Below are positions 25,592 to 41,990 of a DNA stretch of 64,000 bases, one piece after another. The notes beneath the pieces are model-generated. The model did no database searches, was not told the origin of the DNA, and saw nothing but the letters and a program-made list of their open reading frames with translations. The translations under genes and the position numbers were made by a program. How positions within the stretch are numbered: the stretch's first letter is position 1; each line of letters starts with the position of its first letter. Source of the stretch: Chthoniobacterales bacterium (GTDB lineage: Bacteria > Verrucomicrobiota > Verrucomicrobiia > Chthoniobacterales > JACTMZ01); the NCBI GenBank assembly GCA_018883245.1, contig VEQL01000004.1, positions 62,001 through 126,000 on the forward strand, in the 5' to 3' direction.

Positions 25592-28500
25592 ATGAAAAAC
25601 AAAATGCCTGCCCGTTCATCGAAGTTCTTTTTCCCACTAACTATGTGTCTCGGCTTTTTCGCGGCGATGACATTCGATACCCGCGCGCAGCTGGTCATTC
25701 ACGCATGGGAGGTTGGGGGAAATGTTTACTCGGTGGGATACGGATCGGTCGAGTTGCCACAGGCGCGCCCAAATGGAACGGCCAACATGGGTGGATTCTC
25801 ATGGCCGTCGCGGCCCTTTTTTGGTGTTGGCAAGAGCAGCGGCGACGGCCTTTGGTATACGAGCTCTCCCGGCGTGCTTGGGCCCGGTGGCAGCGTTTCG
25901 CCGAACTCAACCTGCGGCGACACCATCAACGGAGGTTCCGCGGGTTTCTATCTTCCGGTAGGATATACCTCCGGAACATTTGTCGGCGGCACGACGATTT
26001 ACCTTGGCCGGACATTTGAGAGCATGGGTGTGAATCCCGGCACTTACGTTTGGTCTTGGGGAACAACTGCAAACAGAAAGCTCACCATCAACATCGGCAC
26101 AACGCCGGTCGAGGGTTATTGGAATGCAGGTTCGGGAACTTGGAGCACGACCGCCAATTGGTTGACGGGCGTCGCGTATGGCACACTGCCAGTCGAGACC
26201 GCTTTCCTCAACAACGGCTCGACGATTTCCTTAAACGATGCGCAATCACTGAGCGGTTCGTTCATGATCGGCCAAACCTGCGCAGGGGGAACGCTGTCGC
26301 TCACGAGCGGGGGTCTGCTGACCACACCGCAGATCGACGTCGCGTTCAAACGTAACACGGTGGGCAATCTGAATTTCGACGGAGGAACGGTAAACGCCTC
26401 CCGCATCGTCTTTGGCGTGGGCAGCGGTGCGGTGAATTTCAAACAAGCCGACGCTCTTGTCCTCGATTCGTTGATATCCGGACTTGGCACGGTGCGCCAG
26501 CAGGGCACGGGGACAACCACGCTCACAGCGAACAACAACTACACCGGTCCGACCGAAGTCACCGGCGGCCGCTTGCTCGTCAACGGCACGCACGCCGGCG
26601 GCCAGAACTACACCCTGTCCGTCAACGGCACGCTGGGCGGCACGGGCATTTTGTCCGCCGGCGTGGTGGTTAACGCCGGTGGAACCCTGACACCCGGCGT
26701 GGGCGGCACGGAGGAGTTCAAGGTAGGTTCATTGACACTGAACCCGAGCGGCACTTACGGCGTTGTTGTCAACGGTGCGGTGGCCAACCGTTTGGCGGTG
26801 ACCGGCAATGTGGCGCTCGACGGACGCATCAGTTTCACCTCTCTCGCCGCACCCACTGCAGATCTTTATTCGCTCATCAATTACGGTGGAACGCTCAACG
26901 GTATCTTCACTTCGATCAACAACATGCCAGCGGGTTATGAGCTGTATTACGGCGATGCCAATACGGTTCTTTTGAAGAAGGCCGCCGCACCGCCCTTCAC
27001 CGTCACTCCGGTGTTTTCCGGTGACAACGCTGTCATAACAGGCGGCACGCTGCCTTTCGATGTCGCCGCCGTTAACTCCGGTGCAAGTTCGCTGACTTTC
27101 ACGGCAGCGTCCGGCACCAACACGTCCGGTTCCGTGGCTAGCACCACCGTGCCTGCGGGTTCGGCTGTCAATGCCGCGGGTCTTTCATGGACAGGCACCG
27201 CGGTCGGTGCGGACCAACCGGGCAGCTTCCAAGCGACCAGCGGGGCCACCACGACGAATGTGGGCTTCGCCGTGTCTGTTTACGACCATGCGGCGCCAGG
27301 AGTGAGTGGAGGCTCCTCCATTGCATTCGCGCCTGTGCATGCCGGCTACGCAGCGGCCCAACAATCGACGAACAGTCTGACGGTCACCAATAGCAGCGGT
27401 TTCCGCGTCGATCTCGGCATGACCAATGACAACACCGCGCTCATTCCGACGCTGGCGGGACTTGCGCAGGGAAATTCCAGACAGCTTTTCGGAAGTCTGG
27501 CCACGGGGCGCGCTGCAGGACGGTTCAGCAACACGGTGGCGCTGCGCTTTTTTGACGATTCGACACTCAACGGTGCAAGCGCCAACCTTCTCACCACAAA
27601 CGTCACCGTGATGGGCTATGTGTATTCCGGCCAAGGCGTTTGGGCCGCGGCTGCGGGCGGTGACTGGGAGGCCATTGCAAACTGGCAAGTTCCGGGCGGC
27701 GTGCCGGGACTCGACGGTGCGTTGAGTATCAACGATACCGCAACGTTTGGCACGAATGGCAACGGTCCCGTGACCTTGAACACAAACGCGGGCCTGCTCG
27801 CGATCACGTTTTCCAATCCTGTGTCATATGATGTTTCCGGCAGCGGCACCATCACGCTCGCGGCCTCGGGTGCAAATAATGCGTCGATCACGACGCTGGC
27901 CGGTGCGCATACGATTTCCAACGCGGTGGTCGCGCAGAGCGATCTGTATTTATCCAATGCCGCATCGACGCGATTGACGCTGGCCGGACCTGTTTCCGGA
28001 ATCAGTGCACTGAACAAGTCCGGTGCAGGCACGACGACGCTGGCCGGAAGCAACACCTATTCGGGCGCAACGACGATCGCGGCAGGAACGCTTTCGGTCG
28101 AAGGAGCTGGTCTGCTCGGCGGCGGAACCTACGGCGCGAGCATCGCCAACAACGGAACACTCTCGTTCCTCGGCAGCGGAGCGCAGACGCTCAACAGCAC
28201 CATTTCCGGCACCGGGTCTCTGGTTGTCGGCGGATCCACCACGGTCACGCTCAACCCGACCAATGCGACGACGGCGAACACCTATTCCGGCGGCACGGTC
28301 GTGAACAATGGCGGAACGCTGGTTCTCGTCGGCAACGACAAAGGCGGCTCTGTCGTCGGCGCCAACACGCTGACGATCAACGCGGGCGGCACGGTGACAT
28401 CGGGGGCTGTAAATCCGCTCGGCTGGGACACCGGTTCAGCCACGCCCAACGTTGTTATAAACGGCGGAACTTGGGACGGCAGCGGATATTATGCCGGCTT

Positions 28501-31500
28501 CGGCAATTTGACGTTGAGCAATGGCACGCTCCTGCGCAGTGGCTCGTTCTGGTATAAAAACCGGCCCGGCACGATCAGTGTCTTCGGCGACTCTTTCATT
28601 ACCGGAGGCAGCTACAGTTTGCGTCAGGCGGACAGCGCGTCGCTGCCTTACAACAATTTCAATGTAGCCAGCAACTCGAAGCTCACGGTCTCGGCCTCGC
28701 TGATCAACGGCGGGACGGGAACGAGCAGCGCGAACGATTCCGGATTCATCAAGACCGGCGCGGGCACGATGCTGCTCACGGCCACGAACAGCAACTATCG
28801 CGGCAATACCTTCATCAGCAACGGCGTGGTTCAGGCCGGGGCCAACGGTTCTCTTTCCAGCAATTCCGTTGTGTTACTGGCCGGCGGCACACTCGACATC
28901 CAAAGCACGACAAACTCCATCAGCGTTCTGGAAGTTCTCACGGGCAACCATACGCAAACCAACGGCGTCCTCAATGTGCTCCGCCCCAACGACCAAAGCA
29001 TCCGTTTGGCCCGCGATGCGGGAAGCATCGCCACTTACAATCTTGAAGGCGGGACACTTCGCTCCGCTTATTTGGCCAATCTGCAGGTCGGTTGGAACGG
29101 CACTGCAACTTTCAACCAGACGGGCGGAACGAACAGCATCGGCGGTTATCTTGTCATCGGCCGTTGGGGCAGTTCCAGCGGCACCTACAACCTCTCCGGT
29201 GGTCTCCTGGAACAATACGAGGCCTCGCGCTTCTCCATCATTGGTGAAGACGGCGTCGGCACAGTCAATGTCAGCGGCACCGGCGTTTTCAGCAACGTTT
29301 CCTCCGTGCGCATCGGCCTGGCAGGCGGTCGAGGCACTCTCTCGCTCTCCAATGCCGGGCAGTTCATCGCTCCCGGGATCCAATTCGGTGCCAACACCAA
29401 CAACAGCGTAATCTTCGGTCTCAGCTACAACACGAACTATGCCGGACCGATCAGCGGCACCGGCAGCTTGGTGAAGAACGGTTCATCGACCCTGACCCTC
29501 TCGGGCAACAATACCTACACGCGCGGGACAACGGTCAACGGCGGAACCGTTGCCGTCACCGGAAAACTTGCCAACAACGCCGGCAATACCGTCACGGTGA
29601 ATAGCGGGGCGACTTTCGAGTTCGGCGCCACCGACGTGTTCGGCCTCCACTCCGCGACCATCCTGACGCCGATTGTGATCAACGCGGGCGGTCTCGTCAC
29701 CAACAGCGGCAACTTCTTCAACGCCCTCGGACCGGTCACGCTCAACGGCGGGACGCTCGCGGCCGGAGGCACGACCAACGGCTATTCCTACGCGCTCAAA
29801 AGTGCTGTCACCGTGAGCAGCAATTCCACGATCAGCGGTCCGGGCATCAGTCTTGGTGCGGGGTCGGTGACCGGCACCACTTTCAACGTCGCGAGCAACG
29901 CGACGCTGACCGTGACTGATGGTTTGCTCAATGGCGCGGGTGCTTCCTGGCCAACGCCTCAAGCGAGTTCGCTCACCAAATCGGGCGTAGGCACGTTGCT
30001 GCTCAATGGCACCAACACTTACACGGGTGACACGACGATCTCGGCAGGGACGCTCGCGGTCGGCGGTTCCGGTGTCTTGGGCGGTGGCAATTACAATGGC
30101 GACATCGCCAACAACGGGACGGTGGTCATTGATTCAACGGCCAACCAAACCCTGAGCGGAACAATTTCGGGCACGGGATCGCTCGTGAAGAATTCCTCCG
30201 GCACGCTCACGCTCGACGGACTCGACAATACCTACAGCGGCACGACGACGATCAACGACGGGACAGTCTTGCTCAACGTCAACCACACGGGCGCGGGCGC
30301 CTACACGGTCAACGGCGGAACTTTCGGCGGCACGGGTTCGACCGCGGGCAGCGTCACGGTCAACAGCGGCAACATCACGCCGGGAGACGGTATCACGCCG
30401 GGTGAGCTCGGCATCGGCAATCTGACGCTCGCGGGCGGCACGCTTAACGTTTTGCTCGATGGGGATACGTCGAGCCTTCTCAAGGTGACCGGCGACGTCG
30501 CGTTGTCAGGCGGCGCGGTGAATTTCATCACCGGACCGAATCCGCTCACTGCATCGCTCTACAATTTTGTCTCCTACGCGGGACTCGGCACCGGCTTTTT
30601 CTCGGCCACGAATGCAATTCCTGCGGGCTACGAGCTGCTTTACGCGGATGACGACAACACGATCCTTCTCAAACTGCAAAGCGTCAAATATGCCGTCGGT
30701 GCACTATTCGATGGCCCCAATGCGGTGATCACGGGTGGCACGCTGCCGTTCGATGTTTCCGTGTTCAATGATGATTCCAACAGCGTGACCTTTACCGCCG
30801 CGGGCGCCACCAACACCACAGGAACAGTCGCCGCGACAACAGTCGGGGCTGGCCACGACACCAATGCACCCGGTCTGAGCTGGACCGGAACCACAGTCGG
30901 AACCAACAGCGGCAATTTCGATGTCACGTTCAACGGGTCGTCCTCTTATACGACAAACGTCGGATTGACCGTGTTGGTCTATGATCACGCTTCAGGTTCG
31001 CTGCTCACCAACGCACTCGAGATGCCCGATGCCATCGTCGGCTACACCGGTTCGCTGCAGGGAACGCTCGAGGTCAGCAACGCCGCCGCGGCACCGCTGC
31101 GCGCGGCGCTCGGAACAGTCAGCTCCTCAACCAACGCGGGCCTGACCATTGAAGATGTCGCTGATGTCGATGCGGGGTCGTCGGACAACCTGACTGTCAG
31201 TCTCGCGGGGCAAGCCGCGGGCGTTTACACAAACAACGTCAATGTCACGTTCCGTGACAGCTCGACGCTCAGAGGTGCGAGCACCAACGTCGGCACGACC
31301 AATTTCGCCGTCACCGGAACGATCTACAACCACGCTGCAGGCTCGGTGGCCGGCGGCAATACGCTCTCGTTCGCGCCGGTGCACGTCGGCTATGCCGGCC
31401 CGCTCACGACGACCAATACGGTGACCATCAGCAACCAAGCCGGTCTTCGCGTTGCCTTGGGTGCGACGGCTGTTTCCACGAATGTGGATCTCTCTATCGA

Positions 31501-34500
31501 TGCCGTCTCCGGCTTGGCCCAAGGCGCATCGACCAACATCGGCGCGACGCTCGCCAGCGGCGCTGATGCCGGCATTTTCACCAACAACGTCACGGTCACA
31601 TTCTTCGACGACTCCGGTCTGCGGGGCGCCAGCACGAACGTCGGCACGGCGAATCTTCTTGTGACCGGTATCATTTACACCGGCCAGGGCGTATGGACCT
31701 CGACCAATGGCGGCGCTTGGACGACTTTCACCAATTGGCTGGCAGCGGGTGGAACACCGGGCTTGGACGGTGCGCTCAGTGTCAACGACACGGCGACGTT
31801 CGGCGCGGCCGGACGCGGACCCGTCACGCTGGACACGAACGCGTCGCTCCTCTCGATGACGTTCTCCAATGTGAACTCCTACATCCTCTCCGGCAGTGGC
31901 ACGATCACTCTCGCGGCTTCCGGCGCGAACGAATCCTCCATCTCCTCGCTGCGCGGCACGCATACGATTTCCAACGCCATTGTGGCGCCGACAGACCTGC
32001 AGCTGAACACGGCGACCAACAGCGGGTTGACGCTTAATGGGGTCATCAGCGGCGCGGGTGGATTGATCAAGATTGGCACGGGCACGGCGACTCTTGGCGC
32101 ATCGAACACTTACGAGGGGACCACAGCTGTCGAAGCTGGAGCGCTTATCGGTTCCGCGGCGTCCGCGTTCAGCACGAAAGCCATAACGGTCGGTGCCTAC
32201 GACGATGAAAACGCTTCGTTGCTGGTCGATGTTTCCGCAGGGGGATTCACTGTTTCCAACGCCATCACCGTCGTGCCGAACCTCGGCATCACGACCATCG
32301 GTTCTTCGAAGCTCGGCACAAACAATTGGGCGAAATTCGCCGGCCCGATCGAGTTGGAGAACGACGTGACACTTGTTGCCGCTCCCGGTCTCGATGGCGT
32401 CAACAACCGCACCGATTTCAGCGGCGGGATCAGCGGCACAGGCGATGTGACCATTACCACGGCGACCAATTCGCGGGTGGTGTTCATGGATGCCGCCAAC
32501 AGCTTCAATGGTGATGTCATCATCAGCCCGGGTTCCACGCTGCAGCTCAGCGACGGGAATGCCACCAGCACAAACTTCATTCCCGACACGGCGAACGTAA
32601 CCATCGGAGCAAACGGCTTCCTCAAACTGGCTAAGGGTGACAACTCCGAGGACATTGGGGGCTTGTCCGGAACGGGAACGGTCGAGGCGATCGCCGGCGG
32701 AATAAACAAACTCATCATCGGCAACAACGATGCTTCGGCGACATTTGCAGGAACGCTCCGCGACAACGGCGGTGTGCTGGATATCCAGAAAATCGGCACA
32801 GGAACGCAGATATTCACCGGAATCGGAACGTATTCCGGCGTGACCTACGTTGCCGGCGGCGGAACGCTCAGCGTTGCCGGCCCCGGGTCGATCAATGGAA
32901 CACGAGAAGTTTGGGTTTATGACTCGGACAGCATCCTCGAGATCATCGATGGCGGTTCGGTTTCCTCAACCGGCAATGTGGCCGTGGGTCCTTTCGATGG
33001 CACACGCGACAACCAGATCAATGTCCTTGGAGCAGGTTCGACACTGTCAGCCGCTGGTAATTTTTACGTGGGCTACGGCGGAACCAACAACCAGCTGAAT
33101 GTTTCCGAGGGATCGGTGACCGCCGGCAATTTTTACGCCGGCTTCCAAGCCACTGCGCAGGACAGTGTGACCACTGTTTCCGATGGCGGATCGCTCACGG
33201 TCACCAGCGCGTTCATCGTCGGCGTCGGCGGGACTGACAACGGCCTCCAAGTGCTGAATGGCGGCCGAGTTGCCGTGACAGGGACCAGCGATGTCGTTGT
33301 CGGCAATGATGCCGGCTCGACTGGTAACTTCCTTGTTGTTTCGGGAGCGGGCTCCACCTTCACCAATCAGAAAGCCTTTGTCCTTGGTCTTGCCGGGGCG
33401 AGCAACTCGCTCACTGTGGAGGATGGTGCGGAACTCAGAACTGGGAACGCCCGGATCGGCCGCGATACTGGCTCCGATGGAAACACCGCGGTCGTCACGG
33501 GCGCAGGCTCGAGTTGGGATATCACGGGCACTTTGCGTGTCGGCTCCTCGGGCAACAGCAACAGCCTCGAAATCATAGGCGGCGGCATCGTCAATGTTTC
33601 CAGCAATGTCTTCGTGGGTTATCTGGGCACGGATACAACCGGCAACTCTATCCTGGTGGGCGGGAGCAACTCCCAGCTCGTCGTGACCAATGGAGCAAGC
33701 GAACTTTTGGTCGGTCCGACTGCGGCCAGCTCAAATAGCGTTACCGTAGCCGATGGCGGCGAGTTGGTGGTCAATTCGGTGCAGCTCGGGCCGTTATCAA
33801 CCCTGCGCTTTGGTGAAGGAAATGGCGCTGGTTACATCAGCGACGCCGCGGTCATCAACGGGAACTCCGGTGGTCTGGTGGAGTTCAATCACACCAACGA
33901 TGACTACAACTTCGTTGCCCGTCTCGCGGGAGGTCTTGGAGTCGTGTTCAGCGGCCCCGGCACCACAACGGTCGGCGGATCAAACTCCTACACTGGCGCC
34001 ACAACGATCAATGGCGGCACGGTTGTGACGACAACCACGAATGCCTTCGGCAACAATAGCGATGTCACGCTCAACGCCGGCGTGCTCAGCCTCGACACTG
34101 GTTTGGACATCGGGACATTCACGTGGGACGCGCTGGGCGTCGTGAGCATCCTCGATGCTGTGTCCGATGCGAACGCTCTGCGGATCGCGGGCAATCTGAC
34201 GCTGACCAACGGTCCGACGAACATGTTCGACCTGCGTGGAACGTTCTTAGGCGGGTCACCGACCAAACTCCTCACGGCCGCAAACATGACGACCAACGAC
34301 TTTGACCCGTCGCTTTTCGGCATCGTGGGTGGTCTGGCCGGCGACTACATCTTGACCATCAGCAACAACGCGCTGTGGATCGATGCGGAGATGCTCATTG
34401 TTGACGGGAGCGTCACAACGACCGGCGGCACGAACAGCTATAAAGGTGTGCGCTACGTGGCCGGCACAGATCCGAATCTGGAAATCCCTGTCGGAAGCAC

Positions 34501-36154
34501 GATCAATATCACGAACAACCCCGTTGTGATGAGCAACAACAGCGTCACAACGGTGAACGGCGTGTTTTCGTCCGGCAACGGCTTCACAGTGCAGAGCGGA
34601 AGCGCTTTGGGCGGAGCAGGCACGCTGATCGGCAATGTGATCAACCAGGGCCTTTTGAATCCCGGCAACCCGACCGGACTGATGACCATCCAAGGCAACT
34701 TCACGCAGACGCCCTCGGGAACCACCGGTCTGCAAATCGCAGGGCCGAGCACCTTCAGCCAGCTGCTCATTACCGGCACGGCGACATTGGCCGGCACTCT
34801 TCAAGTCACACCGATCAACGGCTTCGCTCTGCCGTTCGGCAGCCGATACCAGTTCCTCACGGCGAACGGCGGGGTCAGCGGTGCTTATGACGCCATTGCG
34901 ATGCCGACCGGTCAGCGCGGCCGTGTCCTCATCAATGGGACGACAGCGAGCCTTTTGGTCGCTCCGCAGAGCTACACGCAAATGGCGATGACGCCCAACC
35001 AGTTCAACGTTGCTGCGGCGCTTGACAGCTTCATCAGCGCTGGTGGCGACCGTGGCACGGTGAGCGCGGCTCTCGATTCGCTGAGTGCAGCCGAATACCC
35101 CGCGGCGCTGGAGCAAATGTTGCCCAATGCTTATTCCTCGCTGCCCAACATGGCCTTCAACACGGCCAATGCGCTCAACAGCGGGATGTTCCAGCGGTTG
35201 TGGGTGACCCGCGTCAACGGCCGCGGGTTCTCATCCACCCTCGCTACCAACCCGATGCAGGCGGAGATGGGCGGCACGGATGACATGGGCGCCTTCGCCA
35301 TCAATCCGTCGAAGGAAACCAAGTGGGGTACGTTCGTCGATGGCAACGGCATCTTCGCCAATGGAGGAAACGTGAACTATCTGCAGAACTACCGCTCGCA
35401 AAGCGGCGGGGTGAGCACGGGCGCGTCCTACTCGTGGAATGACAACCTGGCTACCGGCGTCTATGTCGGCTACCAGGGCCTGCAAGCCGAATACGACAAT
35501 GGCCGCACGATCGACAACGCGGTGCGCTTCGGTGTCTTCGGCACCTACGATATCGACAACTTCTACGTCAACGGCCTGGTCGGCGGCGCCTACCACGGCT
35601 ACACGGTCAACCGCTACATCGACTTCGGTGGCTTGGACCGCACGGCGACCGGACGCCCGGGCGCGGGCGAGTTCGATCTGGCGTTGGGCACGGGCTACGA
35701 CTTCGAGGTGGGGAACTTCACATGGGGTCCGTTCACCACGATGCAATACACCTACCTCGGGGTGCAGGGCTTCACGGAGACGGGCGCCGACTCGCTCAAT
35801 CTGGACGTGAGCCCCTACAACTCCAGCAGCCTTCTTTACACGCTGGGTGCGCAGGCGGCCTACAATTGGAAGCTCTCGAAGAATGTGCTCGTCACGCCGA
35901 CAATCTTTGCCGGATGGCAGCATGAGTTCTTGCAGAATAGCTACCAGATCAACTCGTCGTTCACCACGGGTGGCCCGGCCTCGCCGTTCGCCTACAACAC
36001 CGGCACACCGGCGCGTGACAACTTCTACGGCGGCGTGGGAGCGACGGTGGGAATCGGCGAGCGCTGGCAGGCCACGGCGACCTACAGCGCGTTTGTGGGC
36101 GGCCAGAGCCAAAGCAGCCAGAACCTCTACCTCGGACTTGGCTACAAGTTCTGA
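25592..36154 (+). CDS. Giant autotransporter with beta-strand repeat passenger
   Basis: 3,520 residues. The signal peptide (about 1-33) ends FDTRAQ. The passenger is a Gly/Thr/Asn-rich series of autotransporter-associated beta-strand repeats, with the recurring core LTLxGxNTYxGxTTxxxGxL, which should fold into a long beta-helix. Interspersed are two copies of an Ig-like pair of domains and a run (about 2450-2720) of LxVGxxGxxNxLxVxxGG units. The C-terminal beta-barrel domain (about 3245-3520) starts near KWGTFVDGNG and ends LYLGLGYKF with the terminal aromatic residue needed for outer-membrane insertion. It is a type Va system: passenger and barrel in one chain. No PEP-CTERM tail is present. 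Palindrome copy 4 precedes it, which suggests co-control with the PEP-CTERM genes. The target or partner is unknown. Confidence 0.92.
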   Translation: MKNKMPARSSKFFFPLTMCLGFFAAMTFDTRAQLVIHAWEVGGNVYSVGYGSVELPQARPNGTANMGGFSWPSRPFFGVGKSSGDGLWYTSSPGVLGPGGSVSPNSTCGDTINGGSAGFYLPVGYTSGTFVGGTTIYLGRTFESMGVNPGTYVWSWGTTANRKLTINIGTTPVEGYWNAGSGTWSTTANWLTGVAYGTLPVETAFLNNGSTISLNDAQSLSGSFMIGQTCAGGTLSLTSGGLLTTPQIDVAFKRNTVGNLNFDGGTVNASRIVFGVGSGAVNFKQADALVLDSLISGLGTVRQQGTGTTTLTANNNYTGPTEVTGGRLLVNGTHAGGQNYTLSVNGTLGGTGILSAGVVVNAGGTLTPGVGGTEEFKVGSLTLNPSGTYGVVVNGAVANRLAVTGNVALDGRISFTSLAAPTADLYSLINYGGTLNGIFTSINNMPAGYELYYGDANTVLLKKAAAPPFTVTPVFSGDNAVITGGTLPFDVAAVNSGASSLTFTAASGTNTSGSVASTTVPAGSAVNAAGLSWTGTAVGADQPGSFQATSGATTTNVGFAVSVYDHAAPGVSGGSSIAFAPVHAGYAAAQQSTNSLTVTNSSGFRVDLGMTNDNTALIPTLAGLAQGNSRQLFGSLATGRAAGRFSNTVALRFFDDSTLNGASANLLTTNVTVMGYVYSGQGVWAAAAGGDWEAIANWQVPGGVPGLDGALSINDTATFGTNGNGPVTLNTNAGLLAITFSNPVSYDVSGSGTITLAASGANNASITTLAGAHTISNAVVAQSDLYLSNAASTRLTLAGPVSGISALNKSGAGTTTLAGSNTYSGATTIAAGTLSVEGAGLLGGGTYGASIANNGTLSFLGSGAQTLNSTISGTGSLVVGGSTTVTLNPTNATTANTYSGGTVVNNGGTLVLVGNDKGGSVVGANTLTINAGGTVTSGAVNPLGWDTGSATPNVVINGGTWDGSGYYAGFGNLTLSNGTLLRSGSFWYKNRPGTISVFGDSFITGGSYSLRQADSASLPYNNFNVASNSKLTVSASLINGGTGTSSANDSGFIKTGAGTMLLTATNSNYRGNTFISNGVVQAGANGSLSSNSVVLLAGGTLDIQSTTNSISVLEVLTGNHTQTNGVLNVLRPNDQSIRLARDAGSIATYNLEGGTLRSAYLANLQVGWNGTATFNQTGGTNSIGGYLVIGRWGSSSGTYNLSGGLLEQYEASRFSIIGEDGVGTVNVSGTGVFSNVSSVRIGLAGGRGTLSLSNAGQFIAPGIQFGANTNNSVIFGLSYNTNYAGPISGTGSLVKNGSSTLTLSGNNTYTRGTTVNGGTVAVTGKLANNAGNTVTVNSGATFEFGATDVFGLHSATILTPIVINAGGLVTNSGNFFNALGPVTLNGGTLAAGGTTNGYSYALKSAVTVSSNSTISGPGISLGAGSVTGTTFNVASNATLTVTDGLLNGAGASWPTPQASSLTKSGVGTLLLNGTNTYTGDTTISAGTLAVGGSGVLGGGNYNGDIANNGTVVIDSTANQTLSGTISGTGSLVKNSSGTLTLDGLDNTYSGTTTINDGTVLLNVNHTGAGAYTVNGGTFGGTGSTAGSVTVNSGNITPGDGITPGELGIGNLTLAGGTLNVLLDGDTSSLLKVTGDVALSGGAVNFITGPNPLTASLYNFVSYAGLGTGFFSATNAIPAGYELLYADDDNTILLKLQSVKYAVGALFDGPNAVITGGTLPFDVSVFNDDSNSVTFTAAGATNTTGTVAATTVGAGHDTNAPGLSWTGTTVGTNSGNFDVTFNGSSSYTTNVGLTVLVYDHASGSLLTNALEMPDAIVGYTGSLQGTLEVSNAAAAPLRAALGTVSSSTNAGLTIEDVADVDAGSSDNLTVSLAGQAAGVYTNNVNVTFRDSSTLRGASTNVGTTNFAVTGTIYNHAAGSVAGGNTLSFAPVHVGYAGPLTTTNTVTISNQAGLRVALGATAVSTNVDLSIDAVSGLAQGASTNIGATLASGADAGIFTNNVTVTFFDDSGLRGASTNVGTANLLVTGIIYTGQGVWTSTNGGAWTTFTNWLAAGGTPGLDGALSVNDTATFGAAGRGPVTLDTNASLLSMTFSNVNSYILSGSGTITLAASGANESSISSLRGTHTISNAIVAPTDLQLNTATNSGLTLNGVISGAGGLIKIGTGTATLGASNTYEGTTAVEAGALIGSAASAFSTKAITVGAYDDENASLLVDVSAGGFTVSNAITVVPNLGITTIGSSKLGTNNWAKFAGPIELENDVTLVAAPGLDGVNNRTDFSGGISGTGDVTITTATNSRVVFMDAANSFNGDVIISPGSTLQLSDGNATSTNFIPDTANVTIGANGFLKLAKGDNSEDIGGLSGTGTVEAIAGGINKLIIGNNDASATFAGTLRDNGGVLDIQKIGTGTQIFTGIGTYSGVTYVAGGGTLSVAGPGSINGTREVWVYDSDSILEIIDGGSVSSTGNVAVGPFDGTRDNQINVLGAGSTLSAAGNFYVGYGGTNNQLNVSEGSVTAGNFYAGFQATAQDSVTTVSDGGSLTVTSAFIVGVGGTDNGLQVLNGGRVAVTGTSDVVVGNDAGSTGNFLVVSGAGSTFTNQKAFVLGLAGASNSLTVEDGAELRTGNARIGRDTGSDGNTAVVTGAGSSWDITGTLRVGSSGNSNSLEIIGGGIVNVSSNVFVGYLGTDTTGNSILVGGSNSQLVVTNGASELLVGPTAASSNSVTVADGGELVVNSVQLGPLSTLRFGEGNGAGYISDAAVINGNSGGLVEFNHTNDDYNFVARLAGGLGVVFSGPGTTTVGGSNSYTGATTINGGTVVTTTTNAFGNNSDVTLNAGVLSLDTGLDIGTFTWDALGVVSILDAVSDANALRIAGNLTLTNGPTNMFDLRGTFLGGSPTKLLTAANMTTNDFDPSLFGIVGGLAGDYILTISNNALWIDAEMLIVDGSVTTTGGTNSYKGVRYVAGTDPNLEIPVGSTINITNNPVVMSNNSVTTVNGVFSSGNGFTVQSGSALGGAGTLIGNVINQGLLNPGNPTGLMTIQGNFTQTPSGTTGLQIAGPSTFSQLLITGTATLAGTLQVTPINGFALPFGSRYQFLTANGGVSGAYDAIAMPTGQRGRVLINGTTASLLVAPQSYTQMAMTPNQFNVAAALDSFISAGGDRGTVSAALDSLSAAEYPAALEQMLPNAYSSLPNMAFNTANALNSGMFQRLWVTRVNGRGFSSTLATNPMQAEMGGTDDMGAFAINPSKETKWGTFVDGNGIFANGGNVNYLQNYRSQSGGVSTGASYSWNDNLATGVYVGYQGLQAEYDNGRTIDNAVRFGVFGTYDIDNFYVNGLVGGAYHGYTVNRYIDFGGLDRTATGRPGAGEFDLALGTGYDFEVGNFTWGPFTTMQYTYLGVQGFTETGADSLNLDVSPYNSSSLLYTLGAQAAYNWKLSKNVLVTPTIFAGWQHEFLQNSYQINSSFTTGGPASPFAYNTGTPARDNFYGGVGATVGIGERWQATATYSAFVGGQSQSSQNLYLGLGYKF
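26995..28110 (+). repeat. Autotransporter internal duplication, unit A
   Basis: This stretch begins with VFSGDNAVITGGTLPFDV, continues through VYDHAAP...FAPVHAGYAA and GVPGLDGALSINDTATFG, and ends at the first NTYSGATTI repeat. It is colinear at protein level with unit B at about 30690-32130, with one added module in B. The two lie about 3.7-4 kb apart inside one gene. Confidence 0.75.
30690..32130 (+). repeat. Autotransporter internal duplication, unit B
   Basis: Second copy of the module: LFDGPNAVITGGTLPFDV, then LVYDHASG, a further IYNHAAGSVAGGNTLSFAPV module, then GTPGLDGALSVNDTATFG and SGSGTITLAASGAN. It is longer than unit A because the VYDH/IYNH-type module occurs twice here. The divergence between A and B indicates an old duplication. 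Confidence 0.75.
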
Positions 36155-36244
36155 CCTGCCATTTGCCATTGCACGGGCCGGTTAGGCTCGGTTTGAATGC
36201 TTGGCTGTGCCTGGCCGCAGCCAAGCCCCGCCCAATATTCTGAC

Positions 36245-38353
36245 ATGTCTCTTTTCAACCGCCTCAGCATCCAGTCGAAGATGATCGTCCTGCTGCTGGC
36301 GGTGAGTCTCGGCTCGATCGCCGTGATGGCATGGATCGGTTATGACACGGCTCGGACGGCGTTGATGCAATCCGCGCGCAACCAACTCCAGGGGGTGCGC
36401 GTGGCCAAGACGACCACGCTCAAGGCGATGCTCGAGTCGCTGCGCGACCAAGTGGTTTCGATTTCGGACAGCAAGGCGGTGATCGAGGGCATGCGGGCTT
36501 TCCGCGAGGCGCACCGCGAATTGGGTGCCGCGACGCTCGGGCCGGAGGAAAGCCGGAAGCTCGATGCTTTTTACCGCGACTATTTCCTTCCCGAATTGGA
36601 CAAGAATGTCGAGGGCACGCCCGTGCTCGAGCAATACCTGCCCGTGCGTCCGTCCGAGCGCTACCTGCAATACCATTACACCGTGGCGAACCCGCATCCT
36701 TACGGCGACAAACAGAACCTCGAAGTGGCGCCGGGCGATGCGACGGTCTACGGGCGCACGCACGAGCAATTGCACAGGTTTTTTGCGCGTGCGGTGAAGA
36801 TTTTCGGCTTCCAGGACATGATGCTCGTGGACGCCGACACCCTCGACGTCATCTACAGCTACGAGAAAACCGCGGAACTCGGCACGAATCTCGAGAACGG
36901 CCCCTACGCCAACACGCACCTGGGCGCCAAGGTGCGCGAAATGCGGACGAAACAGGATCGCGATGATTTCAAAATCGCGGACTTCGAGGCGTATCGCCCG
37001 AGCTTGGGCCGGCCGATGGGCTTCGCCATCAGCCCGATCTTCGACGGAGCCAAGATGACGGGAATGCTCGTGCTGCAGTTCCCGATAGACAATTTCAACG
37101 CGGTGCTCACCGGGAATTTCAACTGGCAGGCCGAGGGCATGGGCGAAACGGGGGAGACTTATCTGGTCGGTCCGGACGGCACGATGCGCACGCGCTCGCG
37201 CTTCATGTATACCGATCCGGAAAAATTTGTCCGCGAACTGCGGCGCAGCAGTGTGCCGTCGAGCGTGGTGGACCAGGTCGAGCGCCAGGGCAACGTGCTT
37301 TGCGTGCTGCCCGCGGAATCGCCGGCCGTCGAAGCGGCGCTCAAGGGTGAATCGGGCATCATGGAAACAACCGACTATCGCGGCGAGAAGGTGCTGAGCG
37401 CCTACGGTCCGCTCGAATTGGATTCGTTGCGCTGGGCGGTGATCGCCGATGTTTCGCTGGCCGAAGCGCAGGCTCCGGTGCGGGCGTTCGCGCGCAAAGT
37501 GGTAGTGGCAGGCAGCGGCCTTGCGCTGTGCGTGACATTACTCGCTTTGGTATGCGCGCACATGCTCACGCGCCCGCTGCGCAAATTGGCCGAAGGTGCG
37601 CGTCGCCTTGGCGCGGGCGAAACCGGAGTGCGCGTCGATCTGCAATCGAGCGACGAGTTCGGAGAACTGGCACGTGTTTTCAACGAGATGGCCGGAAGCA
37701 TCCACCGGCAGAAGCAGCAACTCGAGGCGCAGGTGCGCGAGAACCAGGATCTTTTGCACAGCATCCTTCCGGCTTCGGCCGTCGCGCAACGCCAGGAAGG
37801 GGACGAGAAAGCCAGTCGCCAGTTCGCCGATGTTTCGGTGCTGTTCGCGGAAATTCTCGGGCTCGAAGACTTCAGCGCCAAAGTCGGGGAAACCAAAGCG
37901 CTCTCCGTGCTGGGCGACTTGATCGAGTCCTTCGACGAAGCCGCGGAAAAATCCGGCATCGAAAAAGTGAAGACTATCGGCGGATCTTACCTCGCGGTCT
38001 GCGGTCTATCGGTGGCGCGTCCGGACCACGCGCGTCGCATGGTGGAATTCGCGCGCGAAATGACCAAGATCGTCGGGATGTTCAACCGCGACCATCACGC
38101 GGAATTCGGCCTGGCCGTCGGTATCAACTCCGGACCCGTGGTGGGCGGCGTCGTGGGTCGCCGCAAATTCCTCTACGATTTGTGGGGCGATACGGTGACG
38201 ATCGCGCGCAAGCTCGCTGCAGGACAGGGCGCGGCGGTGCGGGTGACACCCGCAGTGCGCGAACGCACGGCCGAGCAGTTCCAGTTCCGCGGCCCGGTGC
38301 GGCTCGCGGGCGAGGGTCGCGCGGCGATCGAGCTTTGGGAAGTGACCGGCTGA
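36245..38353 (+). CDS. Membrane sensor with HAMP and degenerate class III nucleotide cyclase domain
   Basis: 702 residues from ATG 36245. TM1 (about 13-33), a large extracytoplasmic sensor (about 34-415, Cache-like), TM2 (about 418-440), HAMP (about 441-495), a short coil, then a class III cyclase domain (about 525-702). The fold motifs are recognisable, but catalytic positions are changed: the first metal aspartate is E536 (VLFAEILG), the second is G580 (KTIGGSYLA instead of IGD), and the transition-state Asn/Arg are T652 and K656 (DLWGDTVTIARKL). K576 and D645, for base recognition, remain. Activity is doubtful; a regulatory or nucleotide-binding role is possible. It is followed after 19 bp by a channel with a cyclic-nucleotide-binding domain. 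Confidence 0.85.
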   Translation: MSLFNRLSIQSKMIVLLLAVSLGSIAVMAWIGYDTARTALMQSARNQLQGVRVAKTTTLKAMLESLRDQVVSISDSKAVIEGMRAFREAHRELGAATLGPEESRKLDAFYRDYFLPELDKNVEGTPVLEQYLPVRPSERYLQYHYTVANPHPYGDKQNLEVAPGDATVYGRTHEQLHRFFARAVKIFGFQDMMLVDADTLDVIYSYEKTAELGTNLENGPYANTHLGAKVREMRTKQDRDDFKIADFEAYRPSLGRPMGFAISPIFDGAKMTGMLVLQFPIDNFNAVLTGNFNWQAEGMGETGETYLVGPDGTMRTRSRFMYTDPEKFVRELRRSSVPSSVVDQVERQGNVLCVLPAESPAVEAALKGESGIMETTDYRGEKVLSAYGPLELDSLRWAVIADVSLAEAQAPVRAFARKVVVAGSGLALCVTLLALVCAHMLTRPLRKLAEGARRLGAGETGVRVDLQSSDEFGELARVFNEMAGSIHRQKQQLEAQVRENQDLLHSILPASAVAQRQEGDEKASRQFADVSVLFAEILGLEDFSAKVGETKALSVLGDLIESFDEAAEKSGIEKVKTIGGSYLAVCGLSVARPDHARRMVEFAREMTKIVGMFNRDHHAEFGLAVGINSGPVVGGVVGRRKFLYDLWGDTVTIARKLAAGQGAAVRVTPAVRERTAEQFQFRGPVRLAGEGRAAIELWEVTG

Positions 38354-38372
38354 GTCTGCGTTCCTCCGCGCC

Positions 38373-39803
38373 ATGAACGACTTCGCGTCCCTCGGAATCG
38401 CCAATCTGCGCGCCGCGATTTTTCTGGCCGTCGGTTTTCCTCTGGCGCTGCTGGTGCTCAACGAGGCGTCGGCGCGATGCCGTCGCGCCGGCCTGCCCAT
38501 CGCGCGCACTTTTGCGACGCTGAGGAATCTCGTCGTTCCCTCGCTGGCGCTGCTGGTTTTCGCACGCCATGTGGCGCAGTGGCCGGCGCAAGGCACCGCG
38601 GTGCGCGTGATAGAATCGGTTTTCTGGATCGCGTTGCTCTATGCCGTTCTCGGACTGGTCAATGACGTGGTCTTCGGGGCCGCGACCAAAGGCTCGTGGA
38701 GCGAACGCGTCCCGAAGTTGTTTCGCGACCTCGTGCGCGCGCTTCTCGTGGCCGTCGGCGCGATGGTCATCTACTCGCAGGTCTGGGGACACGAGATTTC
38801 CGCGGCACTGACAGCGCTCGGCCTCGGTTCGATCGTCATCGGTCTCGCGCTGCAGGAACCGCTGGGCAACATCGTGTCGGGGCTCATGCTGCTGTTCGAG
38901 CGGCCGCTCGCCGTTGGCGATTGGGTGCTCGTGGATGGCGTGCGCGGCAAAGTGATCGAAATCAACTGGCGTTCGGTGCACATCGAAACTCCGACGCGCG
39001 AACTGCAGGTGGTGCCCAATGTCGTCCTTTACAAGGGAACCTTCGCCAACCTTTCACGTCCCACGCCGCTCCGCACGGAGATCATCGAGATCGGTTTCAG
39101 CTATGACGATCCGCCGAACCGCGTGAAGGAAGTGATGCAGCAGTTGTTGGAATCGACGCCGGGCGTGCTTGCCGATCCGGCGCCGCTGGTGCGCACGGTG
39201 AACTACGCGGATTTCTCGGTCATCTACCGGCTCATTTTTTCCGTCGAGTCGCAGGCCGAGCTGGCCGCGGTGCGGGACAATATCATGACGCGGCTGTGGT
39301 ATGTGGCGCGGCGAGACGGTCTGACCATTCCGTTCCCGATCCAGATGGAATACAGCCCCGGCGAAAACCCCGGACCGGCCGCTCCGACACCCGCCGAATT
39401 GCTGCGCGCGCATCCGCGCTTTGCGCCGGCCTTGCAGGGTGCGGCCGGCGCGCCTGCGGTGCTCGAGTTCGCTGCGGGCGAAATGGTCCACGACCCCGCA
39501 CGCCGGCTCGAGGGTTTCGCCCTCGTGATCAAGGGCCGTGCATCGCTGCTTTCGACCGATGCCGAGGGCAGGCAGGTCGAGATCGGATCGGTCGGCCCCG
39601 GGGAAGCATTCGGGGATCAGGTGACAGCGGGCGGATCGGCGGACAACATCGCCGTGGCCGCCGCCGAGGACCTGAAGATCATTCTGTTCGACAACGAGGC
39701 AATCGGCGGTTTACTCAACCGCTCACCTTCGCTTGCCTCCGAAATCGGAGACGCGATCGAATCGCGCCGCCAAGCCGCACAGGTGGCGAGACGAAGGAAA
39801 TAA
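38373..39803 (+). CDS. MscS-type channel with C-terminal cyclic-nucleotide-binding domain
   Basis: 476 residues. Four to five membrane segments are followed by the MscS pore helix and beta domain: SALTALGLGSIVIGLALQEP, then GDWVLVDGVRGKVIEINWRS and VVPNVVLYKGTFANLS. A cyclic-nucleotide-binding (CNBD) fold fills about residues 360-465. This architecture is that of bacterial cyclic-nucleotide-gated (bCNG) channels. The phosphate-binding cassette reads GEAFGDQVTAGGSADNIAV; the family's conserved arginine before (S/T)AxV is not visible. Ligand binding is therefore uncertain. It is cotranscribed with the degenerate cyclase upstream. Confidence 0.88.
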   Translation: MNDFASLGIANLRAAIFLAVGFPLALLVLNEASARCRRAGLPIARTFATLRNLVVPSLALLVFARHVAQWPAQGTAVRVIESVFWIALLYAVLGLVNDVVFGAATKGSWSERVPKLFRDLVRALLVAVGAMVIYSQVWGHEISAALTALGLGSIVIGLALQEPLGNIVSGLMLLFERPLAVGDWVLVDGVRGKVIEINWRSVHIETPTRELQVVPNVVLYKGTFANLSRPTPLRTEIIEIGFSYDDPPNRVKEVMQQLLESTPGVLADPAPLVRTVNYADFSVIYRLIFSVESQAELAAVRDNIMTRLWYVARRDGLTIPFPIQMEYSPGENPGPAAPTPAELLRAHPRFAPALQGAAGAPAVLEFAAGEMVHDPARRLEGFALVIKGRASLLSTDAEGRQVEIGSVGPGEAFGDQVTAGGSADNIAVAAAEDLKIILFDNEAIGGLLNRSPSLASEIGDAIESRRQAAQVARRRK

Positions 39804-39831: not shown

Positions 39832-40902
39832 ATGAAAAAAATCCTCGTCACTCTTTCTCTCCTTGCGGTCTGCACGGCCGCGGGTGTTTCCCAAGCTCCG
39901 CAGCAAAAGCTGCGCGTGTTTGTGAAACCGGCGGAACCCTTCGCGTTCGAGCAGGACGGTGTGCTCAAAGGCTATTCTATCGATGTTTGGAACAAGGTGG
40001 CGGAGGAGGCGGGTCTGCAGTTCGAGACAACCGTGGTGCGGACGGTTCCGGAATTGCTCGATGCGGTGAAAGGCGGGCAGGCGGATGTCGGTGTCGGCGC
40101 GCTGAGCATCACTCCCGAGCGCGAGAAGCTGATGGATTTCAGCCATCCGTTTTTCAACTCCGGCTTGCAGATCCTCGCGCGCGCGCAGGGGCAAGCAGGG
40201 GCATTTTCGGCTTTCCGCGCATTGTTCAACAAGAACGTCGCCCAAGTGGTGATCGTCCTTCTCCTCGCCGTGCTCGTCGTTTCCCATTTGCTCTGGATGG
40301 TCGAGCGGCGGATCAACGCCGAGAGTTTTCCCGAGGGATACATCCGCGGCGTGTGGGAGTCGGCATGGTGGTCGATCGCGACATTGATCAGCGGGGGCTG
40401 CGAAAACAAAGCACCGGTCGGCGTGGCCGGGCGCCTCGTCGCCGTCGTATGGATGCTCGGCGGAATCGGCCTTACGTCCTACATCACGGCGACGCTCGCA
40501 TCGGCCATGACCGTCAACACGCTCACCTCGGAAATTTCCGGTTTGGGTGATTTGCGCGGTTCGCGCGTGGCCACCGTTTCGGGCGCCGCGGCGGAGACCT
40601 TGCTCAACCGTGCCGGGTTCGATGTTGCCGGTTTCCCGGATCTTGCCGGGGCGGTCGATGCGCTGAAGCGCGGTCAGGTCAAAGGCGTGGTTTATGACAG
40701 TCCCATGCTCCGCTACTACGTGGCCCGGCATCCGGGCGAGGGGCTGGCCGTGGTGGGCGCTATTTTCGATCCGCAAGACTACGGGTTCGCCATGCCGCTC
40801 GGCAGTCCCGTGCGGAAGCCGATCAATGCCGCCCTGCTCAACATCAAGACGGCAGGGGTCATGGACGAGTTGGACGGCAAGTGGTTTGCACCGGAGGAGT
40901 GA
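39832..40902 (+). CDS. GluR0-like ligand-gated ion channel
   Basis: 356 residues from ATG 39832. The signal peptide spans about 1-20. A family-3 solute-binding domain is split by a pore. Lobe S1 (about 26-120) has SITPEREKLMDFSHPF, with R97 as ligand contact. The pore module consists of M1 (138-156), a re-entrant loop (174-192) and M2 (202-226). Lobe S2 (about 235-356) includes VVYDSPMLRYY. This is the prokaryotic ionotropic-glutamate-receptor layout. The selectivity-filter position reads ISGGCEN, not the potassium signature TVGYG of GluR0. It begins 28 bp after the MscS-CNBD gene, so the three signalling genes are probably one operon. Confidence 0.85.
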   Translation: MKKILVTLSLLAVCTAAGVSQAPQQKLRVFVKPAEPFAFEQDGVLKGYSIDVWNKVAEEAGLQFETTVVRTVPELLDAVKGGQADVGVGALSITPEREKLMDFSHPFFNSGLQILARAQGQAGAFSAFRALFNKNVAQVVIVLLLAVLVVSHLLWMVERRINAESFPEGYIRGVWESAWWSIATLISGGCENKAPVGVAGRLVAVVWMLGGIGLTSYITATLASAMTVNTLTSEISGLGDLRGSRVATVSGAAAETLLNRAGFDVAGFPDLAGAVDALKRGQVKGVVYDSPMLRYYVARHPGEGLAVVGAIFDPQDYGFAMPLGSPVRKPINAALLNIKTAGVMDELDGKWFAPEE

Positions 40903-41207: not shown

Positions 41208-41990
41208 ATGCATTTCGAGGAAACGGTCTCTGCGACTTGCGTGCCCCCGGGCAACGAGGACGCAGGTGCAGCGGATACGGCGCCCATTGCCGGCCATGGC
41301 TTCACCACGAATGAAGTGAAAGCCGAACTCGATCGCATCGTCGGCAGCCCGGACTTTCGCGCAAGCCCGCGCAACCGACGTTTTTTGGAATTTGTTGTTC
41401 TGCGGACGCTGACGCAACCGGATTCAAGAATCTCGGCCTATGACGTGGCCACGCAGGTTTTCGGACGTCCCGACACTTTTAACCCGGTGAAGGATCCCAT
41501 CGTCCGGATCGAGGCGGGAAAGTTGCGGCGCGATCTGGAGACCTTTTATCTCAAGGCGGGATCTCGCGGCCGCCTGCGCATCGAAATGCCCAAGGGCGGA
41601 TACCGGGCGGGCTTTTTGCCCGCGACGCCGGAGCCGGCCGCGTCCGATTGTCCACCGACTGCATCGTTGTCCGATGACCCGATGGAGGAATTGCAGCGGG
41701 TTTTGTCGAGCAGCGATTTCCCCGCCACCGCGCGCAACCGGAAGTTCCTGGACTTTGTCGTCCGCGAAACTCTTGCGGGCAGGGCCGACGGCATCACGGC
41801 CCGCACGATCGGCCTGCGCGTTCTCGGCCGGCCCGCCAGCTTCAATCCCAATCAGGACCCGATCGTCCGCATCGAAGCCGGACGCCTCCGTCGCGACCTC
41901 GAGACCTATTATCTGAAGTCCGGGCACCGCAACCCGCTGCGAATCAGCATTCCTCGAGGCGGTTACCTTCCGGTATTCGCCAAACCCTGA
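41208..41990 (+). CDS. Protein of two tandem winged-helix-like domains
   Basis: 260 residues made of two copies of one domain (about 33-140 and 155-260) joined by a short Pro-rich linker. Shared motifs are NR(R/K)FL(E/D)FVVxxTL, FGRPxxFNPxxDPIVRIEAG, LRRDLExYYLxxG and IPRGGY. The same domain elsewhere sits at the N-terminus of TPR proteins and adenylate cyclases, where it is thought to be a DNA-binding-like module; here it stands alone in duplicate. A regulator role is inference. It may be transcribed from the palindrome copy 5 promoter with the preceding membrane protein. Confidence 0.75.
   Translation: MHFEETVSATCVPPGNEDAGAADTAPIAGHGFTTNEVKAELDRIVGSPDFRASPRNRRFLEFVVLRTLTQPDSRISAYDVATQVFGRPDTFNPVKDPIVRIEAGKLRRDLETFYLKAGSRGRLRIEMPKGGYRAGFLPATPEPAASDCPPTASLSDDPMEELQRVLSSSDFPATARNRKFLDFVVRETLAGRADGITARTIGLRVLGRPASFNPNQDPIVRIEAGRLRRDLETYYLKSGHRNPLRISIPRGGYLPVFAKP

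Follow-up and report, generated by a model that had tools for sequence, protein, structure and literature searches.

Bacterial cyclic nucleotide-gated (bCNG) channels, in which an MscS pore is joined to a cyclic nucleotide-binding domain (CNBD), were described by Caldwell et al. 2010 and Malcolm et al. 2012 (both as cited in PMC4560390). The channel analysed here is built to the same plan, with a C-terminal CNBD after the MscS transmembrane and beta domains, but it departs from bCNG channels in two ways. The phosphate arginine of the CNBD is replaced throughout the clade of channels to which it belongs (the paired clade), whereas unpaired relatives keep it, and its gene is linked to one for a receptor pseudocyclase. 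This receptor has in common with the receptor-type class III adenylyl cyclases (those with an Rv1625c-like catalytic fold) a HAMP domain, a coiled coil and the class III fold, and 5o5k and 4p2m are clear sequence relatives of its cyclase domain. It differs from them in that the second metal-binding aspartate and the transition-state asparagine are lost in the planctomycete/verrucomicrobial (PVC) clade, to which the window (the whole stretch of 64,000 nucleotides that we analysed) belongs.

Two further comparisons bear on how such proteins might work. The C2 half of membrane adenylyl cyclases and the alpha-1 half of soluble guanylyl cyclase have, like the PVC-clade domains, lost metal sites and kept substrate-side residues; the PVC clade, however, has lost the asparagine as well, and a complementary cyclase is absent from two genomes, G237 and G295. 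On the channel side, the regulatory subunit of trypanosomatid protein kinase A (PKA-R) is a nucleoside-gated cyclic nucleotide-binding protein whose phosphate arginine is replaced by a polar residue (PMC10959531). The window channel likewise has a polar residue in place of this arginine, but the glutamate found at the Ala202 position in PKA-R is absent, the window channel having V417. We class the pair as a variant of these systems, in which a pseudocyclase receptor accompanies an MscS channel whose CNBD lacks the arginine, and in which residues that define a working enzyme and a working cNMP sensor are missing. A literature search, with most subscription papers outside its scope, found neither a receptor-cyclase/MscS pair nor a bacterial pseudocyclase.

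A receptor with a degenerate cyclase domain

The receptor gene (36245..38353, forward strand) encodes a Cache-like sensor, a HAMP domain and a class III cyclase fold, and lies in an open frame (36197-38353, forward strand) of 718 aa. Met17 of this frame, at 36245, which the earlier note on this DNA had taken as the start, is more plausible as the receptor start than 36197; we nevertheless number residues on the 718-aa frame, so that the earlier numbers equal ours minus 16. The extracytoplasmic sensor region (residues 60-430, 36374..37486) gives a weak match to dCache_1, below the curated cut-off, and is followed by a HAMP domain match (residues 454-503, 37556..37705) and the cyclase-fold domain (residues 541-716, 37817..38344), all on the forward strand. 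Residues 541-707 match the Pfam family Guanylate_cyc (E=7e-37), and a structural model of the cyclase domain retains the class III fold (Foldseek, target TM mostly 0.80-0.89).

We placed the catalytic residues by HMMER alignment to the solved adenylyl cyclases AC9, which was the best-scoring solved relative, and AC5. The earlier note had proposed that both metal-binding aspartates are replaced (as E536 and G580) and that threonine and lysine stand for the transition-state asparagine and arginine (T652 and K656), and the alignments bear this out: E552 (37850..37852) is at the first metal aspartate, G596 (37982..37984) at the second, T668 (38198..38200) at the asparagine and K672 (38210..38212) at the arginine. 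The substrate lysine, K592 (37970..37972), and the adenine-side aspartate, D661 (38177..38179), are both kept. Of the features of an active class III cyclase, the window receptor therefore has the fold and the substrate-binding lysine and aspartate, and lacks the two metal aspartates and the transition-state pair. Glutamate is a conservative substitute for aspartate at the first metal site, where metal may still bind; the glycine at the second site should not allow this. The domain probably no longer makes cyclic nucleotide.

A partner channel that lacks the phosphate arginine

The channel gene (38373..39803, forward strand, 476 aa) follows the receptor gene on the same strand after 19 bp. The MscS pore and beta domain of the bCNG plan are both present (PF00924, 3e-20; PF21082, 1.1e-6), the MscS beta and C-terminal domains both being detected within the 476 aa, and residues 365-450 (39465..39722) match the CNBD family cNMP_binding (PF00027, 34.5 bits against a cut-off of 27.5). 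The strands of a C-terminal CNBD fold are present in the channel model. A Foldseek search with the full-length model gave matches dominated by the MscS part and added nothing new on the CNBD.

What the channel lacks is the arginine-containing phosphate-binding cassette of bCNG channels. The former cassette (residues 414-428, 39612..39656) is poorly conserved in the window's clade, and D424 (39642..39644) occupies the arginine position in HMMER alignments to PKA-RI-alpha, PKG and a CRP-family protein, all of which have the phosphate arginine, in agreement with the earlier description of a cassette without it. The CNBD in this clade would thus no longer hold cyclic nucleotide in the usual way. 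Immediately downstream of the CNBD match, a C-terminal helix (residues 451-466, 39723..39770) is, within the window's clade, the part of the CNBD with the highest conservation and is a candidate contact surface. Elsewhere in the window genome, CNBDs with an intact arginine occur on two other proteins (L003 and L004), one patatin-type phospholipase-like and one thiamine-diphosphate-enzyme-like as judged by eye only.

Pairing of receptor and channel across phyla

Scanning genome contigs with the channel as query, we obtained 62 loci, in 41 of which the distance between receptor and channel could be measured. In all 41 a homologous receptor cyclase is the immediate upstream neighbour of the channel, at a distance of -4 to 126 bp. 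Paired loci come from Planctomycetota, Verrucomicrobiota and Cyanobacteria; one further locus, labelled Gammaproteobacteria, groups inside the PVC clade. Since the same residue features recur in dozens of these homologous loci, they are not an accident of the window.

Another way to view the association is through the presence of each partner in whole genomes. Among 292 sampled cyanobacterial genomes, 17 contain both partners and none contains only one (Fisher's exact test, 7e-28, kinship ignored). This count sets aside a receptor-only match in G711, which is a chemoreceptor (MCP) with the shared sensor, and a channel-only match in G678, which is an arginine-containing channel outside the paired clade. 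G742 and Hyella have both genes, although not linked. Paired-clade channels also occur with no receptor gene beside them, in G156 and, as an additional copy, in G760. In a phylum-wide search around one planctomycete, only that genome itself, of 343 sampled, proved to have the receptor; the module is thus patchily distributed in that phylum, and Cyanobacteria served for the co-occurrence counts. The best explanation of the pairing is that the receptor and channel genes form one conserved sensor-channel module, although adjacency and co-occurrence alone are no proof of physical interaction.

Order of the residue losses

To place the losses relative to one another we used a channel tree built from pore and beta-domain columns only (a quick tree, with some long branches). 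Paired channels form a single clade (SH-aLRT 100), and scoring each channel as having or lacking the arginine requires exactly one change on the tree. The arginine is present in 41/42 unpaired MscS-CNBD channels, the exception (L070) sitting inside the paired clade, and is missing from the partner CNBD in every member scored. The tree thus places a single loss of the CNBD arginine before the paired channels diverged from one another.

The cyclases are far more varied. Two cyanobacteria, G764 and G832, keep all six catalytic residues, and their cyclases may be active; their channels have serine in place of the arginine. In a neighbouring cyanobacterial group the second metal aspartate is always kept and the first mostly, with alanine, serine or threonine for the arginine, and in another group the first aspartate and the arginine are kept, and mostly the asparagine, with serine for the second aspartate. 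The PVC-clade cyclases have lost the second metal aspartate in 39/40 cases (the one that has it is degenerate elsewhere) and the asparagine in all (0/40 retain it); at the first metal site 5/40 have aspartate and 34/40 glutamate, and the transition-state arginine remains in 24/40. The substrate-side aspartate is kept in 56/64 cyclases and, as the substrate-side residues are mostly kept, nucleotide may still bind. Taking an intact ancestral cyclase, a state inferred from the wider family, the channel would have given up its arginine first, and cyclase residues would have been lost later, by several routes.

This order rejects a simultaneous drift of both partners, which is how the earlier note had read the locus: on the tree, the arginine loss at the base of the paired clade would precede cyclase losses that came in different combinations.

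Selection on the degenerate domains

Drift is also the wrong kind of process. Among pairs with finite dS, the cyclase domain has a pairwise dN/dS of 0.04-0.19, like that of the sensor and not far from that of the pore; dN/dS is low in all five domains, and the frames are open in nearly all relatives across three phyla. The dead cyclase domain is under strong purifying selection, with its fold kept, and receptor and channel both remain under purifying selection.

Conservation within the CNBD shows where constraint now falls. Unpaired channels conserve the cassette more than any other stretch of the CNBD (0.81, GEMSLLTGEPRSATV), and in the cyanobacterial partner channels the arginine-less cassette is still conserved at 0.72 (GEMALFSGEPSPVSV), which suggests that a ligand pocket survives there. 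In the PVC clade the cassette scores 0.46, less than the remainder of the CNBD, and the top 16-column stretch is instead the C-terminal helix (consensus SPgLAAEIGDAIEsRR), at 0.77. A shift of conservation from cassette to helix fits loss of a ligand with a contact retained or gained, although it falls short of proving a contact.

Proposed coupling and its alternatives

We regard it as about an even call that coupling between the pseudocyclase receptor and the channel does without cAMP and probably works by contact. The Cache-HAMP membrane receptor would sense an extracytoplasmic signal, which, following what is known of these families, would be passed on by HAMP and the coiled coil and so reach the pseudocyclase dimer. 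The dimer would then act on the channel from the cytoplasmic side, most likely by direct contact with the CNBD and in particular with its C-terminal helix, biasing the opening of the pore and so altering channel gating. The absence of cyclase activity, the physical contact, the direction of gating and the nature of the signal are all things that we infer.

Of the earlier note's interpretation, the part that stands is its choice between direct contact and a different ligand, which are the two explanations remaining. Under the second of these the CNBD would bind some other small molecule, and the cyclase fold would bind or make a non-cAMP molecule that links the two proteins. The conserved arginine-less cassette of the cyanobacterial partners speaks for this, as does the precedent of trypanosomatid PKA-R, which binds nucleoside after replacement of the arginine (PMC10959531). 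However, the glutamate diagnostic of nucleoside-binding domains is absent (V417 in the window channel), on which ground we reject a trypanosomatid-type nucleoside pocket there; moreover, the PVC-clade cassette is less conserved than the remaining CNBD, and a product of two-metal catalysis is unlikely without the second metal aspartate. We think a different ligand unlikely. We hold it rather unlikely that the two proteins are merely co-expressed, with domains vestigial for signalling, a channel gated by tension, a receptor acting elsewhere and an operon kept for shared regulation. MscS channels do respond to tension without partners, and some paired-clade channels have no adjoining receptor gene (G156, and the second copy in G760), but the near-perfect co-occurrence, even of unlinked genes, and the strong constraint on the pseudocyclase domain and the C-terminal helix both argue against it.

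That cyclic nucleotide is still made, whether by the domain on its own, through Glu552 and substitute residues, or by a heterodimer in which it is joined to another cyclase, we consider improbable. A glutamate in place of aspartate can bind metal, K592 and D661 are kept, many PVC-clade members retain the arginine, and the G764 and G832 members are intact; against this, the second metal aspartate and the asparagine are both lost across the PVC clade, and every partner CNBD scored lacks its own arginine. A C2-like role needs asparagine and arginine, and with the asparagine gone from the whole PVC clade rescue by a heterodimer is unlikely. As a general answer it is rejected, because neither G237 (from the window's genus, 95% complete) nor G295 has any class III cyclase besides the receptor. 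The window genome has one other, a CHASE2-type protein (L002) with metal aspartates, asparagine and arginine in place. Very improbable, finally, is that the genes are decaying towards pseudogenes. Broken copies do occur (an interrupted cyclase at L014, a broken channel frame at L038 and a split cyclase in G892), but the low dN/dS in all five domains, together with the conservation of open frames in nearly all relatives of three phyla, leads us to reject decay. At the G892 locus (L151) the receptor is split by about 1 kb that, judged by eye, resembles a transposase insertion on the other strand; the channel gene downstream is still open.

Returning to contact-based coupling, its extension to the whole clade is a tentative proposal, which we rate at somewhat less than even. 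The pairs would form a family, spread over several phyla, of channels under receptor control, with the dead cyclase serving as a protein-contact relay that gates the MscS pore by way of a CNBD now without its ligand, and with the conserved arginine-free pocket of the cyanobacteria as an intermediate. If this is true, a receptor-gated channel has been built by combining an MscS pore with a pseudoenzyme, and the range of cyclases, from intact through partly dead to dead, set beside conserved versus abandoned ligand cassettes, would make a natural series in which the shift from second-messenger gating to protein-contact gating could be traced stepwise. It would also counsel caution against annotating such receptor and channel genes as cAMP synthesis and cAMP gating.

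Related receptors and the neighbourhood of the module

Chemoreceptors (MCPsignal) with a homologous sensor region are encoded at L159 (4770-7235, forward strand) and L107 (1402-3582, forward strand). Given such similar sensors on chemoreceptors, the receptor ligand may be one that cells also chase, and the same kind of signal may drive chemotaxis. At L126 and L127 (genomes G766 and G832) there are second receptor copies in which a fully degenerate cyclase domain is followed by a C-terminal globin, each adjoining a second arginine-less channel, as though several inputs converged on the pseudocyclase. At L047 (665-3406, forward strand) the sensor and HAMP are fused in frame to the channel, with neither the cyclase domain nor the first transmembrane part of the channel; as a single metagenome contig, either a natural fusion or an assembly artefact, it is a weak hint of coupling.

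In the window a GluR0-type ligand-gated channel gene (SBP_bac_3 with Lig_chan; 39832..40902, forward strand) begins 28 bp downstream of the MscS channel and is probably in the same transcript. It adjoins the module also in G237, of the same genus, and is absent at the other loci compared; being restricted to this genus among them, it is rejected as a part of the module. A scan of promoters and terminators gave no excess over shuffles. Further downstream (41208-41990, forward strand) lies a gene for a 260-aa protein of two similar halves of ~95 residues each, which no Pfam family matches at 0.001. The module is directly preceded by a 3520-aa repetitive frame of surface-protein type (25592-36154, forward strand), whose C-terminal region reads like an autotransporter barrel.
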